Part shown: positions 34,211 through 62,357 of the stretch, in pieces
Position numbering within the stretch: position 1 is the first letter of the stretch
Layout of the letters: each line of letters opens with the position of its first letter
From: Aliikangiella coralliicola
GTDB taxonomy: Bacteria; Pseudomonadota; Gammaproteobacteria; Enterobacterales; Kangiellaceae
Length of the DNA: 64,000 bases
Reading direction: 5' to 3'
Assembly: GCF_007004725.1 (NCBI RefSeq)
Contig: NZ_ML660162.1
Location: 620,001 to 684,000 of the forward strand
Notes under the pieces: generated by a model
The model's input: the letters and a program-made list of their open reading frames with translations, nothing else
Databases searched by the model: none
What the model was told of the DNA's origin: nothing
Made by a program: the position numbers and the translations under genes

Positions 34211-36103
34211 TTATGCTGAAATTGTCTCGGTTTTTTTGACCGGAAATTCGATACTGACTGTTGTTCCAATGCCAAGCTCTGATTGCAGATCGATTGAACC
34301 GTTCATATTTGATATTAGTTCGCGGCTGATTGCTAAGCCCAATCCTGAACCGGTATGACTGCGATTGTCATTTGGATTAACCTGTTCGAAGCCTTCAAAA
34401 ATTCGTTCGATTTTATCTGCGGGGATCCCCACTCCAGTGTCACTCACGCTAATGCGAACATTATCATCTAGCATTGCATAGCGGATTCTAATGCTTCCAT
34501 TTTCAGTAAATTTCGCAGCATTTCCAATTAGGTTAAATAACAATTGTTGGACGCGTTTTTTATCGTGATGAATAGTTAGTGAATCATCTTGCGCATCAAA
34601 ATCAAAACTAACTTCAGGACCGTTGGTTAATGATTCGCAAAGTTTGATCACTTCATTAATAACCGAAATGAGATCAAAGTCGCTGTACTTAAATGGCATT
34701 TTTCGATTTTTGAGCCTGGCTAAATCGAGAATGTCGTCGACGGTCTCTGACAGTTGGGTTCCGCTTTTTCCGATTAGTCTCACCGACTCTAATATTTCTG
34801 GATCAAGATTATCGCCATGTTCAGTTTCAATAATATCTGATAAACCGATAATTCCATTAAGTGGCGTTCTTAATTCGTGTGATGTGTTGGTTAATATCCT
34901 ATCTTTTAATTTATCTAATTCTTTTAGCTCGTTGTTAACTTGTATCTGTTGTTCAATTTGTTTTTTACTTGAGTGGCGGTAAAATCCGAAAATTATTAGC
35001 AAAGATAGTGAAATCAGACCTGCGGTCCAAATTACCTGAATCTGTTCTTGGGTTTCTAATTCTAACTGGGCAATTTTTGTTTCTTGTTCGCTTTGTTTTA
35101 GGCGTTCTTGGGTCTCGTAGACTTGGCGATCTACTTTAGTAACTTCTGCGAGTAATTGAACTTTCTCGCCAGTGATTACCTGATTCATTTCATAGGTTTT
35201 TCTACTATGTTTTAATGCTAAATCAAACTGACCTGATTTTTCATAAATTTCGCTTAGAAGTTGGTGGTTCTGTAGTTCACTCGACTTCATTTTTAATTCA
35301 ACTGCAGATTTTATAGCGGTTAGTGAGTTTTTCTTTGCGTTATCTGTGTCGTTATTTTTGAAATGAAACTCAGCCATTTCAGTAAGGATTTGAACCTCCA
35401 GACCTTGAAAGTTATTTTGTTTAGCTATGAGTAGAGCATGTTCTAATGAGCGGATTGATTCAAAGTAATTTTGGTCGAGAGCAGCTATTGCTGCACGTCT
35501 CATCAAGACGTATACATCATAAAAAGGAAGCTTAAAACCCTCAAGCAACTTTCTAGCTAAATCATAATATTTATATGCTTTAGCTTTGTCATTTAGTTTT
35601 ATGTAAATATCCGATAAACCGATTAGTGTTGCAGCCTTAAGCTTTGTGTTATTTGTATTTTGTAGAAGCTCGTACTTTCTGACTTGGTAATTAAGTGCCT
35701 CAGTAAAGTTATCAAGTTTAAAATAAATTGCGGAAATATTTCCAAGCGCTCGATCTATACCCAGAGTGTCATTTTGATCTCGAGCGATTTTTAGGGACTC
35801 TCTATAAAGAGAGAGGGCCTGCTCAAAATTCCCTAAGTAATACAAATTCGATGCAATATTGCTGATAGCTCTTGCCAGCTCTCTTTGATCATCTTCCAAA
35901 AGTGCCATTCGCTTTGCGACATTGGACAACTTATAAGCTTGTTCGTATTCTCCCTTTACTAAATGAGCATAAGCAATTTCGTTGGTCTGTTTTGCGTTTT
36001 TTGAAGAGACGCCAACTTCGGATGAGTCGGCGGTTATAAACGCTACTCTACCGTATAGTACTAACAAAATAATAAGGAAAGCCGACTTTCTAATTAATAC
36101 CAT
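34211..36103 (-). CDS. TPR-domain sensor histidine kinase
   Basis: A 630-aa membrane kinase. A signal/anchor (about 7-25) is followed by a periplasmic tetratricopeptide array (about 40-300) with repeats such as AISNIASNLYYLGNFEQALSLYRESLKIA and AYKYYDLARKLLEGF. Next are a coiled coil (about 320-350), one membrane span (WTAGLISLSLLIIFGFY, about 354-370), the HisKA box NTSHELRTPLNGIIGLSD (His near 412) and the HATPase_c domain with NLIGNAAKFTENG, DTGVGIPADKIERIFEGF and HTGSGLGLAISREL. No receiver domain and no adjacent response regulator, so it is an orphan. It is AT-rich and lies 208 bp after the borosin precursor on the same strand, so partial co-transcription is possible. TPR arrays bind peptides, making a link to the peptide product imaginable but unproven. 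Confidence 0.88.
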   Translation of the reverse strand: MVLIRKSAFLIILLVLYGRVAFITADSSEVGVSSKNAKQTNEIAYAHLVKGEYEQAYKLSNVAKRMALLEDDQRELARAISNIASNLYYLGNFEQALSLYRESLKIARDQNDTLGIDRALGNISAIYFKLDNFTEALNYQVRKYELLQNTNNTKLKAATLIGLSDIYIKLNDKAKAYKYYDLARKLLEGFKLPFYDVYVLMRRAAIAALDQNYFESIRSLEHALLIAKQNNFQGLEVQILTEMAEFHFKNNDTDNAKKNSLTAIKSAVELKMKSSELQNHQLLSEIYEKSGQFDLALKHSRKTYEMNQVITGEKVQLLAEVTKVDRQVYETQERLKQSEQETKIAQLELETQEQIQVIWTAGLISLSLLIIFGFYRHSSKKQIEQQIQVNNELKELDKLKDRILTNTSHELRTPLNGIIGLSDIIETEHGDNLDPEILESVRLIGKSGTQLSETVDDILDLARLKNRKMPFKYSDFDLISVINEVIKLCESLTNGPEVSFDFDAQDDSLTIHHDKKRVQQLLFNLIGNAAKFTENGSIRIRYAMLDDNVRISVSDTGVGIPADKIERIFEGFEQVNPNDNRSHTGSGLGLAISRELISNMNGSIDLQSELGIGTTVSIEFPVKKTETISA

Positions 36104-36311: not shown

Positions 36312-36533
36312 CTAGATAATCCACCCAGAAATAAAAGTACCTGAAGCTGGCGAATTTTTTTGACTTAAATAGCTGCCAATAGCTTCAAAATTTGAGTTGA
36401 TTACTAATTTTATTTCCTCTTGAGATACTCCGTATTTGGTCATTGATTGGATTTTATCTTGCTTATGAAATGCCATCAATTGAGGATTAACTGATAAATC
36501 TGAAAGATAGTTTTGTAAGTTATTTTCTAACAT
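36312..36533 (-). CDS. Split borosin precursor peptide (RiPP)
   Basis: A 73-aa protein that I interpret as the substrate of the adjacent alpha-N-methyltransferase. Residues about 4-54 form a helical leader: LQNYLSDLSVNPQLMAF, HKQDKIQSMTKYGVSQEEI and VINSNFEAIGSYL. This has the compact LigA-like pattern (NPQLMAFxxxD, GVSQEEI) of borosin-binding domains of split borosins. Residues 57-73 are a flexible tail, SQKNSPASGTFISGWII, the expected core, hydrophobic and beta-branched at its end, where backbone N-methylation would occur. The ATG has AAAGGAA at 7-nt spacing. It lies 137 bp after the methyltransferase, same strand. A short hypothetical of other function is the alternative; pairing with the enzyme makes the call strong. 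Confidence 0.8.
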   Translation of the reverse strand: MLENNLQNYLSDLSVNPQLMAFHKQDKIQSMTKYGVSQEEIKLVINSNFEAIGSYLSQKNSPASGTFISGWII

Positions 36534-36670
36534 ATTTATTTCCTTTGCGATAAATTAAAATCGATAGAGATAGCCTCTCTACCTCCTTTAAATAACGAGT
36601 TAATTCAGTTACAACCGGATTCAATTAAACTCGAGAAAAACTTATTAAATGTTGACAACCTTATTCACAA

Positions 36671-37513
36671 TTAAGCTGAACAAGAAATTAGTTCTTGAGT
36701 ATCTACTCCCCATTTTTTGCAAAACTCTAAATTTAGTTCAGGTTTTGACACGGGAGGAATATACATTGTTGTAATCGTTTTAACGCTGACTGAAGTTAAG
36801 TTTGCAAGTAAAATTTTTTCTGTTCTTGGCTCTATGATGGGCAACGTCGTTGCCTCATATAAAATCACTTCGTGATTTTCTGGATACCACTCAAGCATTC
36901 TGTCTTTTAGCATTGCCAAACCATTTTTGGCTGGATTAAATTTTTGCATTGATTCGTCCCCTGCAGCTCCAATTTGCCAAAGAACAAGCGCCGAATGAAT
37001 GTTGATTGAATGTTTATAAAACATAAACTGTGTCGCTTCATAGGCTTGGCAACCCATGTAACCGGGATCAACACCCAAGTCTGCAAATAAACAATCTTCC
37101 GCTGAGATTGATGGCAACATTTTTGCCTCAAATCCCTCACTTCTTGCTTGTTTGATTGAGGCATGTGAAGGGTTAACAAAAACACCTGGATGACCGTAAA
37201 ATACGGCACAAACATTCAGCCCATCACGAACATCAGACATTATCGACTCAACCATCTTATTGTAACCATCAATACGATTCGATCCGTTAACTGTATCTTG
37301 TGGTTTATAATAAAGTTCGTCTAAATTTTTGATATTGTCGTTCAGTTTTTGGATGGTCGAAAAGCCTAAGGGATCCGGAACTAGTGCATGAACGATATCG
37401 GCGGATTTAATATGTGCTATGGATTCTTGTGACAGATGTGCAGGTGTCAAAATTCCGGTGCCAACAATGACAAGGTTACCTGTTTTTTCGTTTTGCTTAC
37501 ACCTATCATCCAT
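36671..37513 (-). CDS. Borosin peptide backbone alpha-N-methyltransferase (split, SonM-like)
   Basis: A 280-aa SAM-dependent enzyme of the tetrapyrrole-methylase fold that methylates backbone amide nitrogens of a ribosomal peptide. Residues 15-25 (VIVGTGILTPA) start the fold. Arg80 and Tyr84 in NRIDGYNKM match the catalytic R-x3-Y of the fungal enzyme OphMA. VFYGHPGVFVNPSHASI (104-120), KMLPSISAEDCLFADLG (131-147) and VLWQIGAAG (177-185) are the hallmark borosin blocks, distinct from precorrin methylases and MazG-linked proteins. The strand TTMYIPP (248-254) closes the catalytic domain. Fungal enzymes carry the core peptide in cis at the C terminus; this one ends shortly after the domain, so the substrate must be in trans: the 73-aa gene just downstream. 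AAAGGGAA precedes the ATG. Confidence 0.92.
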   Translation of the reverse strand: MDDRCKQNEKTGNLVIVGTGILTPAHLSQESIAHIKSADIVHALVPDPLGFSTIQKLNDNIKNLDELYYKPQDTVNGSNRIDGYNKMVESIMSDVRDGLNVCAVFYGHPGVFVNPSHASIKQARSEGFEAKMLPSISAEDCLFADLGVDPGYMGCQAYEATQFMFYKHSINIHSALVLWQIGAAGDESMQKFNPAKNGLAMLKDRMLEWYPENHEVILYEATTLPIIEPRTEKILLANLTSVSVKTITTMYIPPVSKPELNLEFCKKWGVDTQELISCSA

Positions 37514-53838: not shown

Positions 53839-56800
53839 ATGAAGTTAAAACCAATAATAAGCTTTTTAGTTATCCCTCTCTTTTTTATTAGTATTCACTC
53901 TTATCCAAAATCAGATAGAGTTTTTCAAACGAAGATTTTTGAGACATTCACAAAGAAGAATGGCCTTGGTAGTAATTCTGTTTTCGACATTTATCGAAGT
54001 TCAGACGGTTTTTTGTGGGTTGGTACTGTTTATGGACTTTATCGTTATGACGGAGTTCGATTTTCTCTAGTAAATATACAAGATATTATGGCTTCCAAAT
54101 ATTGGGTACATCATGTTACTGGAGATCTTGAGAAAAATATCTGGTTGAGCATCTATCCGAGGACTATTGTTAGATATAATACTAGAACTAGCAGTACGAA
54201 ATTATACAATCTAAAAAATAAGCACGGAGAACTCTTAGATGAAGGAAAAGTTACGAAAGTTTTTGTTGACAGTTCCAACGATATTTGGGTTGGCACCACA
54301 ACAAATTTACAAAAGTTAAATCGAAAAATAAATCAGTTTGAGGAATTCCCTCTTGTTAGCAATAATAAGAAATCGACAATTGATTCTGTGTCAGATATTG
54401 TTCAGGAAGGAAAAAAACTATGGATTGGAACAAATAATGGTATTGTCGAACTAGATCACAATAATAGTTATAAAAGACATTTACCTGCTTTTTTAAGGGA
54501 TACTAATAATTTTCAAGTTGTAGATATTGAAAAAAGTAATGATGGATATCTATGGGTTGCGACATCAAAAAATATCTATAAATTTAACTCGAAAAAAAAT
54601 AACGACATCACCTTACTCGATTGGAAAGAAAAGGAGCTTTGTAGGCAGCCGATTAAAAAAATGTTTTTTGATGATGCTAATCGAATCTGGCTGAGTTTTA
54701 GTGGCGATAGCATTAATATTTGCGTCATTAACATCGGAAAATTTTCTGCAAGAGAAATTCTGTCTAGCAACGCTTTTCAGTCTTCTTTTAAGAATGATGA
54801 TTTCTATCAAGCACACCAAGATCAAGAAGGTATTATCTGGTTTGGGACGGATGGGGGCCTAGTTAAGTTAAGTAAGAATTTAGATGTATATGAGTTCTTT
54901 ACGGCTACTACAAGTAAGGGACTACTGATGTCCATGGATAAAATTCATAATAACCTTTTCATGTCCTCAAATGGTTTTTGGCATTTCGATAGAGAAACTT
55001 TATTGGGTGAAAAGCTATTAGAGCATGAAATTCAGAGTTCCGGAATTTTAAATGGAATTGGTATTTATTACACTAAGCGTTTTCAAGGGAGAGTTAATGT
55101 ATACTTTTATGATAGCTCTAGTAAACGAAATATAGAAGCAACTGCGCTTAACAAAACGCTGAGCAACTTAAATATCAATAATGTTTCTTTGATTGGTGGA
55201 GATAATGGTTACTTATGGGTCGTAACTTCAAAAGGGGTTATTCGTTATCAACATTTTAACAAAAAAATAGCGAAGATTTTTTGGAAAAAACGTGGCTTAA
55301 AATCGAAAATCTCTCCTTTCTACCTTAGAAATTTTGATAGCCAAGTATGGGGCTGTGCTATGGATGGCGAATTATTCTATTCCGATCTAAATGGCGCGAA
55401 TTTACAAAAAGTCACTTTAACGAATAGAAATCAAGTTACACTTCGATGTAATACTATAAGTCAAGGTTTAGGTCGTTATTTATGGGTTGGTGCGCAGGCT
55501 GGAGTGTTTTCAGTCGACATGTTATCAAAAAACGTAAAACATGTGCACGATGTAGATGTATATGTTGGACGAACGGTAGAGACTGATACAGATTTATGGA
55601 TTGAGTCGGAAGGACTCTTCTATATATTTAATAAGGAAAGCGAAAAACACTCAATAGTGGATCTTAGCAGATTCGAAGATATCTCTACTGCTTCTTATTA
55701 CTCGAAACCATATATCGAAAATAACGTAGGCTTTTTCCCATATTTGCAAAAATCGTTAAAGTTGAGTTTTGATAAATTCGAGCATCCGGAAGAGCATGTA
55801 AAAGTTAATTTCAGCGATTTTTACCTGAATAATAATAAGGTTGATCTAAGAAACCATCCTTTAGTTAATACTAACTTTCAAATACCTTATGTCGAAAATT
55901 TAGAGATAAAATACTCAAAAAGTACAATCAAATTTGATTTCTTTTCATCAAATTTCTCGGTGCCACACAAGGTTAAGTACCGATACAAATTAGATGGCTA
56001 TGATGAAGATTGGTTGTATGCTAATTACCAACAAAACTTTGCAAGCTATCCCAGTTTATTTGACGGTGTATATACTTTAAAGGTTCAGGCACGCATAGAA
56101 GATAGTGAACAATGGGGGCCAGTCAGAGAGCTTACTTTAACAATCACTCCACCTCCGTGGAGAACATGGTTGGCTTATAGTTTCTATTTTATTGCGATTG
56201 GCTTTATTCTATATTCAATATACCAGTATCGTTTACGTGTACTTACGCGTAAGGCAAAGGAATTAGAGCAACAAGTCAAACAAAGAACTGAGCAAATTGA
56301 AATTCAAAAAGAGACGATAAAAAACTTACTTGAAAGAAAAAATGAAATGTTTGCCAATGTCTCTCACGAGTTTAGAACGCCTTTAACGCTAATTATTGGA
56401 CCGGTCAATTCGTTTATACAAAAGCACAAAGATTATAAGGTTGACTTCATGCCGGTCATAAATAATGCCAAACGTTTGCTAAGAATGGTCGATCAACTAT
56501 TAGACATTGCGAGAATTGACAGCGACCAAAAAAGCGATTTCGAAATAATAAATCTTTCAGAACTTGTAAAAAAAATTGCCGTTAATATGCAATCTCTTGC
56601 TGAGGAGAGAAAACTTAATATAAAAATCAATGTTAGCGATTCTGCTTACGTACAAGTTAACTATGATGCGGCGGAAAAAGTAATCGTTAATTTAGTGTCG
56701 AATGCCATCAAATATAATTCTCCTAATGGAACTATTTCGATAAAGCTTGAAACTAATAAAGACAAAGTCTTCTTTTCAATTTCTGATACAGGAATAGGAA

Positions 56801-57903
56801 TTCCGTCATCAGAGCAAGAAAGAATTTTTGAGCGATTTGTCAGATTAGAACAAAATGAAACTGATATCCCTGGAGCAGGCATTGGTCTTGCTCTGGTTAA
56901 AGAACTGGTTGAACGCTACCAAGGAAAAATATCTATAAAAAGCGAAATAGATCAGGGGTCCTGTTTTAGCATTGAGTGGCCGAAAGCTGAAAACAAGGAA
57001 CATCTACACTCTAGTGAAATAAACACGGAGATCGATTTAGACAGCATTATTTCAACGCAAGAAGTCGATGCAATAAGAAATAGTCAATCTACCATTGAAG
57101 TTAGTAGCCAAGAAGAGACCCTGGCAGAAAATAAACCTAAAGTATTAATTGTTGAAGATCACCCTGAAATGCGTGCCATGTTAAATAATTTATTGAATAG
57201 CAACTATGATTGCGAGTTGGCAAAAAATGGTAGTGAGGGGATCGAAAAAGCAATTAATACAATTCCCGATCTGGTTATTACTGACTTAATGATGCCTGGT
57301 AAGTCAGGATTTGATGTCGCCAAGGCGCTCAGAAACGACACTAAAACTTCACATATTCCAATAATATTACTCACCGCTAAAGGAGATATCGGCAGTCGAT
57401 TAACGGCATGGAAAACAGAAATAGATGAATTTATCACTAAGCCATTTGATCAACATGAATTACTAGTTAGATGTCAAAACCTTCTCAATATTCGTCGGCT
57501 ATTAAGCTCTCGCGTTAATTCACAGCTAAATAATGTGAATCATGATGAACGGGTTTCGCTGGAAGGAATTAGCCTCCGTGATCAAGAGTTTATCAAATCA
57601 CTAGAGGATGCAGTGGAAAGTCGTTATTCGAACGATAAATTGACCGTGTCAATATTAAGTGGTCTTTTATTTATGAGTGAAAAACAATTACAGAGAAAAG
57701 TGAAAGCTCTGTTGAACCAAAGTATTCCGGATTATGTAAGAAACTACCGTATGCGCAAAGCCGCCGAGTTACTGGAAAGTGGTATGCAAGTTTCGCAAAC
57801 TGCATTTGAGGTTGGCTTTTCTTCTGCCAGCTATTTTGGCTCGTGCTTCAAAGCCTGTTTTGGTGTTAATCCTTCTGAATATTTAAAACAGAAAAATAGA
57901 TAA
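53839..57903 (+). CDS. Hybrid two-component regulator: propeller sensor, kinase, receiver, AraC output
   Basis: A 1354-aa HTCS protein that joins sensing and transcription in one chain. A signal anchor (about 5-23) is followed by a two-component propeller region of about 14 short repeats (such as DGFLWVGTVYGLYRYDG) and a Y_Y_Y domain ending KYRYKLDGYDEDWLYANYQQNFASYPSLFDGVYTLKVQA. One membrane helix follows (WLAYSFYFIAIGFILYSIY, about 775-795). Next come HisKA (NVSHEFRTPLTLIIGP, near 840), HATPase (NLVSNAIKYNSPNG, GAGIGLALVKELVERY), a receiver (Asp near 1147 in VITDLMMPGKSG) and a C-terminal AraC domain (MSEKQLQRKVKALL, TAFEVGFSSASYFGSCFKACFGVNPSEYL). It is strikingly AT-rich versus neighbours. 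Such proteins control glycan-utilisation genes in Bacteroidetes; the target here is unknown. Confidence 0.92.
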   Translation: MKLKPIISFLVIPLFFISIHSYPKSDRVFQTKIFETFTKKNGLGSNSVFDIYRSSDGFLWVGTVYGLYRYDGVRFSLVNIQDIMASKYWVHHVTGDLEKNIWLSIYPRTIVRYNTRTSSTKLYNLKNKHGELLDEGKVTKVFVDSSNDIWVGTTTNLQKLNRKINQFEEFPLVSNNKKSTIDSVSDIVQEGKKLWIGTNNGIVELDHNNSYKRHLPAFLRDTNNFQVVDIEKSNDGYLWVATSKNIYKFNSKKNNDITLLDWKEKELCRQPIKKMFFDDANRIWLSFSGDSINICVINIGKFSAREILSSNAFQSSFKNDDFYQAHQDQEGIIWFGTDGGLVKLSKNLDVYEFFTATTSKGLLMSMDKIHNNLFMSSNGFWHFDRETLLGEKLLEHEIQSSGILNGIGIYYTKRFQGRVNVYFYDSSSKRNIEATALNKTLSNLNINNVSLIGGDNGYLWVVTSKGVIRYQHFNKKIAKIFWKKRGLKSKISPFYLRNFDSQVWGCAMDGELFYSDLNGANLQKVTLTNRNQVTLRCNTISQGLGRYLWVGAQAGVFSVDMLSKNVKHVHDVDVYVGRTVETDTDLWIESEGLFYIFNKESEKHSIVDLSRFEDISTASYYSKPYIENNVGFFPYLQKSLKLSFDKFEHPEEHVKVNFSDFYLNNNKVDLRNHPLVNTNFQIPYVENLEIKYSKSTIKFDFFSSNFSVPHKVKYRYKLDGYDEDWLYANYQQNFASYPSLFDGVYTLKVQARIEDSEQWGPVRELTLTITPPPWRTWLAYSFYFIAIGFILYSIYQYRLRVLTRKAKELEQQVKQRTEQIEIQKETIKNLLERKNEMFANVSHEFRTPLTLIIGPVNSFIQKHKDYKVDFMPVINNAKRLLRMVDQLLDIARIDSDQKSDFEIINLSELVKKIAVNMQSLAEERKLNIKINVSDSAYVQVNYDAAEKVIVNLVSNAIKYNSPNGTISIKLETNKDKVFFSISDTGIGIPSSEQERIFERFVRLEQNETDIPGAGIGLALVKELVERYQGKISIKSEIDQGSCFSIEWPKAENKEHLHSSEINTEIDLDSIISTQEVDAIRNSQSTIEVSSQEETLAENKPKVLIVEDHPEMRAMLNNLLNSNYDCELAKNGSEGIEKAINTIPDLVITDLMMPGKSGFDVAKALRNDTKTSHIPIILLTAKGDIGSRLTAWKTEIDEFITKPFDQHELLVRCQNLLNIRRLLSSRVNSQLNNVNHDERVSLEGISLRDQEFIKSLEDAVESRYSNDKLTVSILSGLLFMSEKQLQRKVKALLNQSIPDYVRNYRMRKAAELLESGMQVSQTAFEVGFSSASYFGSCFKACFGVNPSEYLKQKNR

Positions 57904-57941: not shown

Positions 57942-60900
57942 TCAATCAGACGACTCCCCCACCAACTGACAAACCCGGTGGGGATGATTAAATCCTTTAA
58001 ATTGAATTTCTTCTAACTCAGTAAAATCAAACTCGTTACGGCATTGGGCGTAAATAGGATAACTAACTGTTATTTTCCCTGATGGAGAATAATTTTCTAA
58101 ACGAGAGGCCAGATTAATTCCGCTGCCCACAGCTCTAAAGGCGACAATATCCTCAGAACCAAAGTTTCCGACAGTGGCAAAATCTTGATGAATGCCAATG
58201 CGCAATTTGACATTATGATCAAAGCCCGCTTCCAACCACTGCTCTGAAAGTTCGGTCATTGCTTGCTGCATTTCAAGTGCTAATTTTGCTGCGGATTTTG
58301 CTTGCAATTGTTTGTCCATATTATCCAGGGCGCCAAAAAAGACCACCAGGCCGTCTCCCAAAATTTCATTAAGCACGCCATTTTTGTTTTCGATTAACTG
58401 GCCCATTTTCCCAAGAAAACTATTGAGAATATCGGTGATGGATTCGGGCTCAAAACGATCAGAGATCGAAGTAAAACCAGCCAGATCTGCGAATAAAACG
58501 GTGATCTGTTTTCGCATCGCCACCAATGGATTCTGAGTGTCATTAGTAATGATTTGTTTAACCATTTGTTTTGGAAAATATTTTCCCATGCGCTCACACG
58601 CTTGTTGCAATGTAGCAGTATGTTCTTGCTGCTGTTTAGCGTCAACCAGGCCTCTTAGCAAACTCATGGTATGAATACGGCTTAACAAAACTTCACGCTC
58701 AATAGGTTTAGTAACATAATCATTGGCACCGGCCTCGAAGCCTGCGCTGATATCGCCAGGTTGATTTCGCGCCGAAAGTAGCAGTATCGGCAACTCGATC
58801 GCTGTATATTTTTTCCGTAATCTTTTGCACACATCATAGCCAGATAATCCTGGCATCATGATGTCAATAATGGCTAAATCAAATTTTTCCTGTTCGCCTA
58901 ATTCAACAGCTTTTAATCCGTCTTCTGCGCTGACAACCTGGTAGCCGTTCATTTGCAATAAATCTGAAAGTACTTGAAGATTGATTGGATCATCGTCGGC
59001 GATAAGAACCTTACCTTTGTCCAGGTTATTATTTTTTTTCCTCTTTTTAATAGTTTTAGATTTATTCGTTGTTGAAATCACTCTAGCAGGTTTTTCGTGT
59101 GTGATACTTTCCACCACTTCAACTTCGTGGATATTCTCCAACCACATTGGAATTTCAAAGTAAAATTGCGAGCCTTCGTCCAGCTTAGAAACTGCCCATA
59201 AATTTCCACCGTGCTCTTCAATTAATTGGTGGCTGACCGATAGGCCAAGACCGGTTCCGCGGTGACTGATGGTTTCCGGCAAGGAGGCTTGTTCAAATGG
59301 TTCAAAAATGACTTCTAGCTGCGAGTTGTCAATCCCCATTCCTGTATCGCTAACGCAAACTTCGACAAAATTATTTTTACTATTTGCACTGATTTCTATT
59401 AAACCCTTGTTGGTGTATTTGATCGCATTACCAATCAAATTATGTAGCACCTGTTGAATACGGTTTTCGTCGGCATAAATTAACGGTAACTCTGCTGGAA
59501 TCGAGTTAACTATTTGTAATGACTTTTCTAACGCCAGCGGTCTTAATAAACTCACCACTACATTAACAATTGAGGAGAGATCGACGGCTTTTCGTTGCAA
59601 TACCAGGTTATGATGAGACAGTTTTTTAAAGTCCAGAATATCATTAACGAGTTGAGCTAGTCGCTTACCGCCATCAATAATTAGTTGTAAATGGTTAAGC
59701 GTTTTCTGATTTTGCAGACCTGCTATTCCTTCCTTAAGAGATTCTGCGATGCCGATAATACCATTAAGTGGAGTGCGCAGTTCGTGCGAAGTATTGGCCA
59801 GAAATTCATCCTTTAGTTGATCCACGCGACGTAAATGCTCATTAATCGCTTTTTGTTCTTGTAGTGAGCGTTCATGCTTGTTGAGGTAGTAAGCCAATAG
59901 CGCAATCACTAATGCAAAATATAAAAAGTAGGCCCACCAGGTTTGCCACATGGGCGGCTTAATCGTGAAGGTCACTTTAACCACTTCATCTACCCAGTTT
60001 CCATCACTGTTAGTTGCTTTTAATTCAAATGTATATCGATTGGGATCAAGGTTGGTAAATACAGCCTGGTTATTCAATCCTGATTCTGTCCATTGATCAT
60101 TATAGGGAATTAAACGATAGCGAAATCGGTTTCTTTCCGGGTGACGAAAATCGAGAGAAGCAAACTCAAAAAATAAATCGTTTTCGTTATATTGAAGTTC
60201 AATGGGTTGTTGCTGGTAAGGTACACCGTGCGGTAAAAAGGGTTTTCCCTGGACGTTTATGCCAGTTATTTTTACCTGTGGCTGAAAGTTATTGCGAGTT
60301 CGCGTTATCGGGTTAACAATGGTCACGCCATTAACGCTGCCGAAATAAATTTCGTCGGACAAAGAGCGCGTCACGGCATTCCCGGTAAATTCATTGGTCG
60401 TCAGTCCATCTTCAATAGTGTAGTTGGTAAATCGCCCGGTATTAGGGTCAAGTTCTGATAGTCCCCGGTTAGTACCCAGCCACAAATTTCCGTTCGCAGC
60501 GGCGACAATTCCATGTATGGCGCTGTTAGGTAAACCATCTTTTTCAAGATAACTTTTGAATTGAAAGTCTTTGTTTTGAATTTGCTCGGCTGATAATAGA
60601 TTCAATCCGTTAAAAGTCCCTACCCACAAATTTCCTGAATTATCTTTATAAAGACTTCGCACACTATTATCACTGATTGAAGTTTCATCACCCGGTTTGT
60701 TTTCAAACGCGAGCAAGGTGCCAAATTCCGGATCATAACGCTGGAGACCTTTGTTCCATGTCCCAAACCAGATAATGCCATCTTCATCCTGCAACATGGT
60801 ACGAACAATGGTGTTACCTAGCTGGCCCTGCTCAACAAAGTTATAGTCGTTAGCAATGTTGAGCGTTTCAGAATCAATTTTTAACAAGCCGTCGTCAGTA

Positions 60901-62357
60901 CCTACCCAGATGTTGCCGAAGCGGTCGCTTTCGACCATGCGAATACGATTGCTACTGACATAACCTTTTCGAAAATCCTTGCGTTGAATAAGCTGAGACT
61001 GTTTCGTATTAGGGTCAAAAACTGCTAATTGCCCTTGCTGATTTCCAAACCAGATACGCCGTTTATGATCAAAAGCGAATGCCTGGATCCGATTGCCGAT
61101 AGGTTGATTATTGCTGTCAAAAAATTCAGTGAAATGAACAAACTTATCATTGGTCGGGTCATATTGATCGAGACCATTTAAAGTCGCGATCCAGATCAAT
61201 CCGTTATTATCCTCTTCAATGTCCCAGACAAATTCATGGGATAAGCCATTAGACTGATGTGGCGCGTGGGTCAGTCGAGAAAGTCGGTTTTCAAAGGACA
61301 TGGTAATATTAATACCACCACCGGCTGTGCCCACCCAGATTAATCCAGAACGATCCTGATACATTGACCAGATGTCGTTAATGGTGAGGCTGTGGTTGTC
61401 TGCAGAGTTACGCGAAAAACGCTGAAACTTGTTGGCGCCTTTGCGGCGAATGTTTAAACCGCCTTCATTAGTCCCAACCCAGAGATCGCCGCTGGCAACC
61501 CTCAGTATCGAACGAACATCATTATTGGCGAGACTTTCGGGGTCAGATTCGTCGTGCATGTATTGTTCAAAATCATTCTGGTCCGGGCGTAAGTGATAAA
61601 GACCGTCGAAAAGTGTTCCAATCCAGAGGCTGTTGTCCGTATCCAGATAAAGGTCGTTAATATTTTCGGGCGCGGTTTCTCCCTGATAATAAGTAAAAAC
61701 CTGCTGATCGATATCGAAGTGCGCCAACGTCTCATCACTGGCAATCCATAAATTGCCATTGCCGTCATCAACAATGTCGACGATTGCGCCGTCGGGCAAT
61801 GACTGATTATCTAATGGATTATTGAGAAAATGTGCGAACGCTTGTTTTTCAGGGAGAAAAAGATTGAGTCCCTGGTCGGTGCCAACCCAGATGCGATTAG
61901 CATTGTCTTGATGGATCACTCTGACCTGAGGGTTACTCAAACTATCAAAATCGTCTTCTTTGGAAATAAATCGCGTGAATTCGCCGTTTTTCGGGTTAAA
62001 TCGATTAACACCGTTTTGCGCTGTACCAATCCATAAGTAACCCTGATCATCTTCGATAATCGAAACCACGATATTATCGGAAAGCGAACCGGGATCTTGT
62101 GGGTTATTTTTAAAATTAACAAATCGATACCCATCGTAACGAGTTAATCCGTCGTAAGTACCTATCCACATAAACCCCTGGCTGTCCTGATAGATGGTGT
62201 TGACGGTACTCTGCGGGAGTCCCTGTTCGGTGCCGATATGTAAAAAGCTGATAGCGTTGCGGCTGGCAAACGTCGGGCTTGCAAAAATACAGCCCAGCAA
62301 TATCAGCAGGCAAACGGCAGCTTTTTTGAATGCGTTCAGGTTAACGGGCAAAAACAA
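57942..62357 (-). CDS. Propeller hybrid histidine kinase with receiver and class III nucleotide cyclase
   Basis: A 1471-aa protein with a signal anchor (about 1-31), two propeller blocks built from repeats such as GFMWIGTYDGLTRYDG and NIWVGTDDGLL, a Y_Y_Y domain (about 690-800) and one membrane helix (about 805-823). The HisKA box is NTSHELRTPLNGIIG (near 854); HATPase follows with NLIGNAIKYTNKG and HRGTGLGLSVSHQL, then a receiver (about 1116-1235, Asp near 1160 in IIDIMMPGLSG). The C-terminal cyclase (about 1275-1470) has the metal Asp1291 in VLFADLAGFT and Asp1335 in ILGDGLVVFFG, and Asn/Arg in GINLASRLE. Glu1331 takes the position usually held by Lys in adenylate cyclases, and Arg replaces the usual Asp/Thr near FRAVG. 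A cyclic-nucleotide output is likely, but cAMP versus cGMP is open. Confidence 0.92.
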   Translation of the reverse strand: MFLPVNLNAFKKAAVCLLILLGCIFASPTFASRNAISFLHIGTEQGLPQSTVNTIYQDSQGFMWIGTYDGLTRYDGYRFVNFKNNPQDPGSLSDNIVVSIIEDDQGYLWIGTAQNGVNRFNPKNGEFTRFISKEDDFDSLSNPQVRVIHQDNANRIWVGTDQGLNLFLPEKQAFAHFLNNPLDNQSLPDGAIVDIVDDGNGNLWIASDETLAHFDIDQQVFTYYQGETAPENINDLYLDTDNSLWIGTLFDGLYHLRPDQNDFEQYMHDESDPESLANNDVRSILRVASGDLWVGTNEGGLNIRRKGANKFQRFSRNSADNHSLTINDIWSMYQDRSGLIWVGTAGGGINITMSFENRLSRLTHAPHQSNGLSHEFVWDIEEDNNGLIWIATLNGLDQYDPTNDKFVHFTEFFDSNNQPIGNRIQAFAFDHKRRIWFGNQQGQLAVFDPNTKQSQLIQRKDFRKGYVSSNRIRMVESDRFGNIWVGTDDGLLKIDSETLNIANDYNFVEQGQLGNTIVRTMLQDEDGIIWFGTWNKGLQRYDPEFGTLLAFENKPGDETSISDNSVRSLYKDNSGNLWVGTFNGLNLLSAEQIQNKDFQFKSYLEKDGLPNSAIHGIVAAANGNLWLGTNRGLSELDPNTGRFTNYTIEDGLTTNEFTGNAVTRSLSDEIYFGSVNGVTIVNPITRTRNNFQPQVKITGINVQGKPFLPHGVPYQQQPIELQYNENDLFFEFASLDFRHPERNRFRYRLIPYNDQWTESGLNNQAVFTNLDPNRYTFELKATNSDGNWVDEVVKVTFTIKPPMWQTWWAYFLYFALVIALLAYYLNKHERSLQEQKAINEHLRRVDQLKDEFLANTSHELRTPLNGIIGIAESLKEGIAGLQNQKTLNHLQLIIDGGKRLAQLVNDILDFKKLSHHNLVLQRKAVDLSSIVNVVVSLLRPLALEKSLQIVNSIPAELPLIYADENRIQQVLHNLIGNAIKYTNKGLIEISANSKNNFVEVCVSDTGMGIDNSQLEVIFEPFEQASLPETISHRGTGLGLSVSHQLIEEHGGNLWAVSKLDEGSQFYFEIPMWLENIHEVEVVESITHEKPARVISTTNKSKTIKKRKKNNNLDKGKVLIADDDPINLQVLSDLLQMNGYQVVSAEDGLKAVELGEQEKFDLAIIDIMMPGLSGYDVCKRLRKKYTAIELPILLLSARNQPGDISAGFEAGANDYVTKPIEREVLLSRIHTMSLLRGLVDAKQQQEHTATLQQACERMGKYFPKQMVKQIITNDTQNPLVAMRKQITVLFADLAGFTSISDRFEPESITDILNSFLGKMGQLIENKNGVLNEILGDGLVVFFGALDNMDKQLQAKSAAKLALEMQQAMTELSEQWLEAGFDHNVKLRIGIHQDFATVGNFGSEDIVAFRAVGSGINLASRLENYSPSGKITVSYPIYAQCRNEFDFTELEEIQFKGFNHPHRVCQLVGESSD

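Follow-up and report, generated by a model that had tools for sequence, protein, structure and literature searches.

A type IV split borosin locus of Aliikangiella coralliicola and its neighbouring TPR sensor kinase, a candidate receptor for the methylated peptide

The window analysed here is a 64-kb stretch of DNA, part of the 7.04-Mb genome of Aliikangiella coralliicola, which is assembled in 22 contigs. Three genes on its minus strand are the subject of this study. They encode an alpha-N-methyltransferase of the borosin family (280 aa, 36671..37513), a precursor peptide (73 aa, 36312..36533) and a sensor histidine kinase (630 aa, 34211..36103). The original prediction recognised the enzyme and the precursor as a split borosin pair, and in this it was right, but it stopped at the precursor and overlooked the third gene, a kinase with a TPR sensor. 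This kinase bears on the function of bacterial borosins, which the same prediction had called poorly understood.

The identity of the methyltransferase is clear from its ORF and its matches. A profile search, which had been suggested as a check, assigns it to the Pfam family TP_methylase (1.3e-14), and SonM of Shewanella oneidensis matches it at 1.2e-66 (228 bits) over enzyme residues 12-275. OphMA and dbOphMA match at about 1e-53 to 1e-56. The motifs quoted in the original prediction are all found, with FYGHPGVF at residues 105-112, SAEDCLFADLG at 137-147 and R80-x3-Y84. In an alignment of 18 sequences Y68, R80 and Y84 are invariant, and pairwise alignment to SonM places them on Y58, R67 and Y71, the residues described as stabilisers of the deprotonated amide (PMC8429565). 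A clasp or core is absent from the C-terminus, and both the ORF length and the SonM match, which runs to residue 275, bear out the earlier description of an enzyme without a peptide tail. A cobalamin-type precorrin methylase, the identity that would have spoken against a borosin, is disfavoured, since the NCBIfam models of the precorrin methylase families give 12.3 and 11.2 bits against curated cut-offs of 391 and 271. Because of these low scores and the SonM and OphMA matches, we reject a tetrapyrrole methylase identity. The enzyme occurs in 41 of 61 genomes, A. coralliicola included. Within the family 35 of 37 genomes have it, and in the rest of the order 6 of 24. A class-wide draw found it in 10 of 369 genomes, again counting A. 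coralliicola. The enzyme is thus near-universal within the family and sparse outside it.

The precursor gene lies 137 bp past the enzyme gene on the same strand, as the ORF coordinates confirm, and the ribosome site noted earlier is a good one, AAAGGAAATAAAT standing ahead of the ATG. A small ORF follows the enzyme in all 12 loci of the window's type (the window and L065-L075), although in L075 it was detected only by a looser ORF scan. Among curated families, Pfam gives solely DUF3243 (E 0.08, under the cut-off) and NCBIfam gives nothing. The outcome of the profile search that had been proposed for this protein depends on the query. Used as a single sequence, the precursor has SonA chains as its only PDB matches at E up to 1, and these are weak (E 0.076-0.15). 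A family profile built from 12 precursors of the window's type, with no Shewanella sequence among them, finds SonA clearly at 5.5e-10, and the next non-borosin match stands at 0.15.

The predicted fold agrees with the helical leader and flexible tail that had been proposed. AlphaFold2 gives five helices (residues 5-15, 17-25, 27-34, 38-45 and 49-59; mean pLDDT 76), followed by a mostly disordered tail with pLDDT below 50 for residues 63-72. This helix layout is the one described for SonA (PMC8429565). Together with the superposition on SonA, the model delimits a predicted borosin binding domain at residues 5-59 (36357..36521, minus strand). Residues 60-73 (NSPASGTFISGWII; 36315..36356, minus strand) are the predicted linker and core, positioned by comparison with SonA. 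In Foldseek the 24 top matches of the model are all SonA chains (E 0.04-0.35), and in several of these about 50 residues superpose at about 1 A rmsd. Since the alignment behind the model includes Shewanella precursors, the model cannot count as independent of them.

The window precursor and its relatives have the leader in common, but the tail NSPASGTFISGWII is unlike the relatives' endings (e.g., NSVIEAFKIKK), and an N-S/T pair is the only feature common to both. The window core has diverged from those of close relatives, despite 61-65% enzyme identity to the four nearest. A frame slip was considered and rejected. Neither alternative frame of the tail gives the relatives' ending, so we take the diverged core as real. 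Other precursors carry repeats. The ORF at about 9339 (minus strand) of L078 (G004:C1) encodes a precursor in which one segment (ASHKALIITPKAQ-like) is repeated in tandem, which makes it a multi-core split borosin, and a similar repeated precursor is found in the Colwellia locus L111.

The enzyme-precursor pair is almost certainly a type IV split borosin. It combines homology to SonM and OphMA, with the Tyr-Arg-Tyr residues, the lack of a fused clasp or core, and a separate precursor with a predicted binding domain. The enzyme sequence, the precursor profile match to SonA and the predicted precursor fold all support the split borosin reading of the original prediction and, by analogy with SonM/SonA, the pair probably makes a backbone-N-methylated peptide. 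The likeness to the Shewanella oneidensis pair is extensive, as both systems have an enzyme of about 260-280 aa without a clasp, a separate precursor of about 70 aa with a five-helix leader, and the catalytic Y/R/Y. The cores differ in sequence, SYLVISHGNGD in SonA versus NSPASGTFISGWII in the window. In the third gene, the window has a histidine kinase end where the Shewanella loci have GGDEF, and a 208-bp gap precedes it in the window. OphMA and other fungal fused borosins belong to the same methyltransferase family as the window enzyme, but in OphMA the substrate is fused to the enzyme whereas in the window it is separate.

The Shewanella loci also have the third gene. In L143, from a Shewanella metagenome genome that is not MR-1, 66 of 71 precursor positions match the crystallised SonA, and the core is the same. 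A 456-aa TPR protein comes right after this precursor, followed by a 161-aa GGDEF ORF. In the related Shewanella loci L123 and L147, an intact TPR-GGDEF gene of 594-595 aa is found at the same place. A bacterial borosin product has reportedly been described in a 2023 paper (Crone). In the literature covered, which was open-access and took in the key borosin papers only partly, we found no explanation for the biological role of these borosins. As of 2021, no type IV pathway had been tied to a final natural product (PMC8429565).

The sensor kinase of the window is recognised by Pfam through TPR_12 (2.5e-21), HisKA (3.5e-15) and HATPase_c (1.4e-29). It starts with a hydrophobic N-terminus, a putative signal peptide, and goes on with a TPR domain, a membrane helix near residue 357, and then the HisKA and HATPase domains; the hydrophobic stretches begin at residues 2 and 357. 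Because a hydrophobic N-terminal stretch and a membrane helix lie on either side of the TPR part, we infer that this part is periplasmic. The TPR sensor domain (residues 28-355; 35039..36022, minus strand) is the proposed peptide-binding part. Its AlphaFold2 model has a mean pLDDT of 90.9, with TPR helices up to residue 262 of the modelled fragment and one long helix (266-327 of the fragment) that is predicted to run towards the membrane. The best Foldseek matches are eukaryotic, namely LGN complexes; those that come next include Rap proteins, of which some were solved with peptide, and kinesin light chain bound to a cargo peptide. The LGN, Rap and kinesin light chain matches hold peptides in the TPR groove. 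Since TPR folds match widely, this likeness is support and not proof.

In the Rap-Phr and NprR systems of Firmicutes, a TPR domain is the peptide receptor. RapI and Rap structures solved with peptide align to the TPR model at a TM of about 0.54-0.67 on the query, and the TPR profile matches RapF (4.5e-14) and NprR (1.1e-13), though many non-receptor TPRs score better. Rap and NprR receptors lie in the cytoplasm, and the peptides they bind are not known to be N-methylated. The window TPR domain, unlike these, would be periplasmic and is carried by a membrane kinase, and we claim no membership of that family.

Relatives whose kinase is intact are 28-38% identical to the window in the sensor, 46-56% in the kinase part and 55-63% in the enzyme. 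The faster divergence of the sensor is compatible with a fast-changing ligand site, and also with ordinary sensor evolution. The gap between precursor and sensor is 208 bp in the window versus -1 to 84 bp in L065-L074, and co-transcription is thus less certain in the window. A scan for promoters and terminators was at chance, with 15 promoter-like sites versus 13.3 expected and 2 terminator-like sites versus 3.2. Among the three genes of the window locus we see no evident gene for export or proteolysis. Elsewhere in the window lies a convergent pair of large hybrid sensor kinases, both with Reg_prop propellers (57942-62357, minus strand; 53839-57903, plus strand). At the end of one is a class III nucleotide cyclase domain (Guanylate_cyc 3.8e-22), and at the end of the other an AraC-type HTH.

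In loci of the window's type the TPR gene is a constant companion of the pair, coming after the enzyme and precursor and on their strand in 12 of 12 cases, which are the window, its seven orthologues L065-L071 (53-65% enzyme identity) and the four Pleionea-type loci L072-L075 (44-46%), whereas the other flanks differ. All 12 TPR genes encode a hydrophobic N-terminus, TPR repeats and a membrane helix. A. coralliicola itself has three enzyme loci, each with a precursor and a TPR transducer (kinase, GGDEF and kinase). In addition to the window trio, the C11 locus encodes a 94-aa precursor and a TPR-GGDEF protein, and the C8 locus a 103-aa precursor and a TPR kinase.

The linkage was followed further with a TPR HMM trained on the window and L065-L084 only, a match being E <1e-20 on the same strand within 1.5 kb of the enzyme. 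The scan of named genomes drew on at least 588 relatives, of which the best 80 by similarity to the query were kept; the counts from these named loci therefore hold for the window's nearest relatives. Among these best 80 of at least 588, 58 of the 62 enzymes in gammaproteobacterial loci have a TPR match, 57 downstream and 1 upstream. These enzymes span 14 named genera, but they are not independent events because 21 of the 62 are from Shewanella. Of the four misses, L090, L106 and L145 lie where a contig ends; the fourth is an enzyme of L111, a locus that has two. Left out of the 62 are L085-L089 and L091, taken as duplicates, L101, in which no enzyme ORF was kept, and a 50-aa enzyme fragment in L106. 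A TPR match was found for 22 of 24 enzymes in the training set and 13 of 20 in L165-L184. Among the nine other enzyme-positive genomes of the class-wide draw (L165-L173), the TPR gene is present in 3, with enzymes 42-44% identical to that of the window, and absent in 6, with enzymes at 25-40%. Outside Gammaproteobacteria, 0 of 13 enzymes (12 loci) in the best 80 of at least 588 reach the threshold, one of these loci (L118) ending 173 bases after the enzyme. Five of the 12 have a weaker TPR match (4e-5 to 8e-16) no more than 1.5 kb away, and in four of these it shares the strand of the enzyme. These four same-strand genes (L136, L140, L093 and L162) encode proteins of 292-1032 aa with no predicted membrane helix, perhaps another kind of TPR partner.

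The positional control compared genes of at least 350 aa near to and far from the enzyme. In the named loci (best 80 of at least 588), 60 of 92 such genes within 1.5 kb match the TPR HMM, against 8 of 202 further away. The corresponding figures are 22/40 and 0/109 in the training set and 14/34 and 2/72 in L165-L184, giving 96/166 near and 10/383 far over all sets, training loci included. All ten far matches are in loci that also have a nearer one.

We suggest that the three genes form a module in which the methylated peptide is sensed by the neighbouring TPR kinase, and as a whole we regard this as moderately probable. Acting in trans, the methyltransferase would bind the precursor by its helical leader and methylate backbone amides of its C-terminal tail, as SonM does on SonA. 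A protease would free the tail, and the hydrophobic N-methylated peptide would then get to the periplasm. There it would bind the TPR domain of the neighbouring sensor kinase and alter the kinase output, steps that are suggested by the linkage, the domain make-up and the duplication of the precursor-kinase pair. Better membrane permeability and resistance to proteolysis are named as benefits of N-methylation (PMC8429565), which would suit a peptide without a linked exporter. The peptide is suggested as the ligand because the TPR transducer is conserved beside the enzyme and precursor, and on these genomic patterns we lean slightly towards this ligand role. Against it, TPR proteins bind many things, Pfam TPR_12 reaches only 33 of the 58 named TPR proteins (best 80 of at least 588) at E 0.001, one relative (G021, below) keeps an intact kinase without the pair, and enzymes under about 42% identity lack the linkage.

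No pepsin-like maturase is proposed for the window locus. Shewasins are bacterial pepsin homologues, and shewasin A reportedly cleaves a borosin precursor, according to a 2024 paper. A. coralliicola has one such gene, its only pepsin-like aspartic protease gene (PF00026; L079, G000:C11, 10851-12131, minus strand), beside the second borosin locus at C11, and none adjoins the window locus. A GNAT acetyltransferase gene (L079, 10329-10829, minus strand) adjoins the second locus as well. Sets of protease and GNAT genes seem to recur in relatives, which suggests cleavage and N-acetylation of the C11 product. The pepsin-like gene is found in 23 of 61 relatives, all of them enzyme-positive, and in 0 of 20 enzyme-negative genomes, and by coordinates it lies beside the enzyme in 8 of the 23. 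It is absent from G003, G008, G012 and G024 (75-94% complete), the four genomes whose only enzyme is an orthologue of the window's, and we therefore reject it as the maturase of the window product. As of 2016, bacterial pepsins had yet to be studied functionally in any detail (PMC4814920).

The strongest alternative to the ligand role is that the TPR transducer responds to some other cue, either to activate the borosin operon or to act elsewhere, and that the peptide itself serves, for example, in metal handling or antagonism. We consider this unlikely, though it deserves to be weighed. Sensor kinases often adjoin operons under their control, and the TPR sensor can exist alone, since G021 (95% complete) keeps an intact kinase (2.3e-41; 82% identical to the kinase of L065) with no enzyme or precursor match in the genome scan, the precursor profile search or inspection of the locus. 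This kinase (L231, G021:C5, 7994, minus strand, 617 aa) lies in the gene order of L065, with neighbours that are 70-99% identical. The silence of the precursor profile alone is inconclusive for G021 because the profile also misses some enzyme-positive genomes. The G021 kinase is a remnant or a listener. Five further TPR genes of this kind in A. coralliicola also have no clear precursor-profile match beside them; in L194-L197 the best E is 0.18, with a profile that is weak for divergent precursors (E 0.047 for that of L080). One feature of pheromone systems, the linkage of peptide and receptor genes, is seen in 12/12 window-type loci and for 58/62 enzymes of named gammaproteobacterial loci (best 80 of at least 588), but another, a receptor that is never without its peptide gene, fails at G021.

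Other observations argue against a separate cue. The TPR-membrane part is conserved while the output is not, being a kinase, a GGDEF domain or none, and GGDEF and output-less TPR proteins exert no direct control of transcription. By Pfam, 48 of the 58 named TPR proteins (best 80 of at least 588) contain GGDEF and 8 contain HisKA. The output types comprise a kinase, a kinase with two receiver domains (L083), GGDEF (L076-L079, L081 and L084) and none (L072-L075). In addition, L067 (G012) has the precursor-kinase pair twice around a single enzyme; between its two sensors, identity is 30% for the TPR parts and 54% for the kinase parts.

The output-less forms bear on a second alternative, in which the TPR protein, rather than being a receptor, handles or anchors the peptide in the periplasm or confers immunity to it, and the kinase or cyclase is an add-on. 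In L072-L075 the kinase part is absent while the TPR part and membrane helix are kept, and L184 has a TPR gene without an output domain beside the enzyme, its Pfam TPR score being under the cut-off. In the Kangiella-type loci L235-L237, the enzyme and precursor are accompanied by two to four tandem signal-peptide TPR genes with no output motif, as judged from motif patterns. The output-less versions in L072-L075 and L235-L237 are at odds with a simple kinase signal and count against the ligand reading. The TPR kinase of L070 (10838-12835, plus strand) has the H-box TAREFQRP instead of TSHELRTP, so that the phospho-acceptor His is replaced, while the HATPase domain is still recognised and the TPR part and membrane helix remain. 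However, the GGDEF and HisKA domains of the named TPR proteins, counted above, speak against a mere add-on, and we rate this alternative as rather improbable.

It is very improbable that the linkage is only historical, an ancestral gene order retained in one subfamily without functional coupling. In favour of this reading, no linkage outside Gammaproteobacteria passes the chosen threshold, the class-level draw shows it solely for enzymes with more than about 42% identity, and many of the loci come from related genera. However, other neighbour families are kept in at most 11 of 37 genus labels, whereas a TPR match within 6 kb of the enzyme is found in 92 of 97 gammaproteobacterial loci and 36 of 37 labels. 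The next family, GNAT acetyltransferase-like, reaches 20/97 loci and 11/37 labels, and a pepsin homologue-like family 9/97 loci and 5/37 labels. This count leaves out duplicates, non-gammaproteobacterial loci and L168-L173, none of the last having a TPR match; its TPR cluster joins kinases and cyclases via common domains, and the 37 labels overcount genera, since g3 is counted under two labels and coded genera may be the same as named ones. The linkage also outlasts changes of gene order in the Kangiella-type loci, where L232-L234 and L241 have the order precursor, TPR-GGDEF, enzyme; the loci with genus code g5 were taken as Kangiella because their precursors nearly equal that of L106. Lastly, a tetrapyrrole methylase beside an unrelated small ORF is hardly credible, for although the Pfam label is the general TP_methylase family and Pfam and NCBIfam leave the single precursor sequence unrecognised, the enzyme matches SonM and OphMA with the catalytic residues in common and the adjoining ORF belongs to a SonA-like precursor family.

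The linkage of borosins to TPR proteins may be partly known already, and its GGDEF part, as a neighbour or fusion, has probably been seen before, since GGDEF is defined in the legend of a borosin architecture figure in a published paper (PMC11395268). In the open-access literature, outside which some key borosin papers lie, we found no mention of a TPR domain or of the kinase version with borosins. The conserved TPR transducer gives a concrete and testable role for the preferred reading, with the peptide as signal and the neighbour as receptor. The linkage is also present in the examined loci of Shewanella, a genus that is easy for genetics. More broadly, and only tentatively, we propose that gammaproteobacterial split borosins, including SonM/SonA, could be N-methylated peptide signals, each recognised by a receptor encoded alongside it, a membrane protein whose TPR domain would face the periplasm and which acts through a histidine kinase or a diguanylate cyclase. 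If this is true, N-methylation would spare the peptide the need for a dedicated exporter in crossing membranes and would protect it from proteases. Such signals would also constitute a Gram-negative peptide signalling system of a kind not yet described. A backbone-methylated ribosomal peptide would then join the known bacterial signals, tied to c-di-GMP and two-component control.
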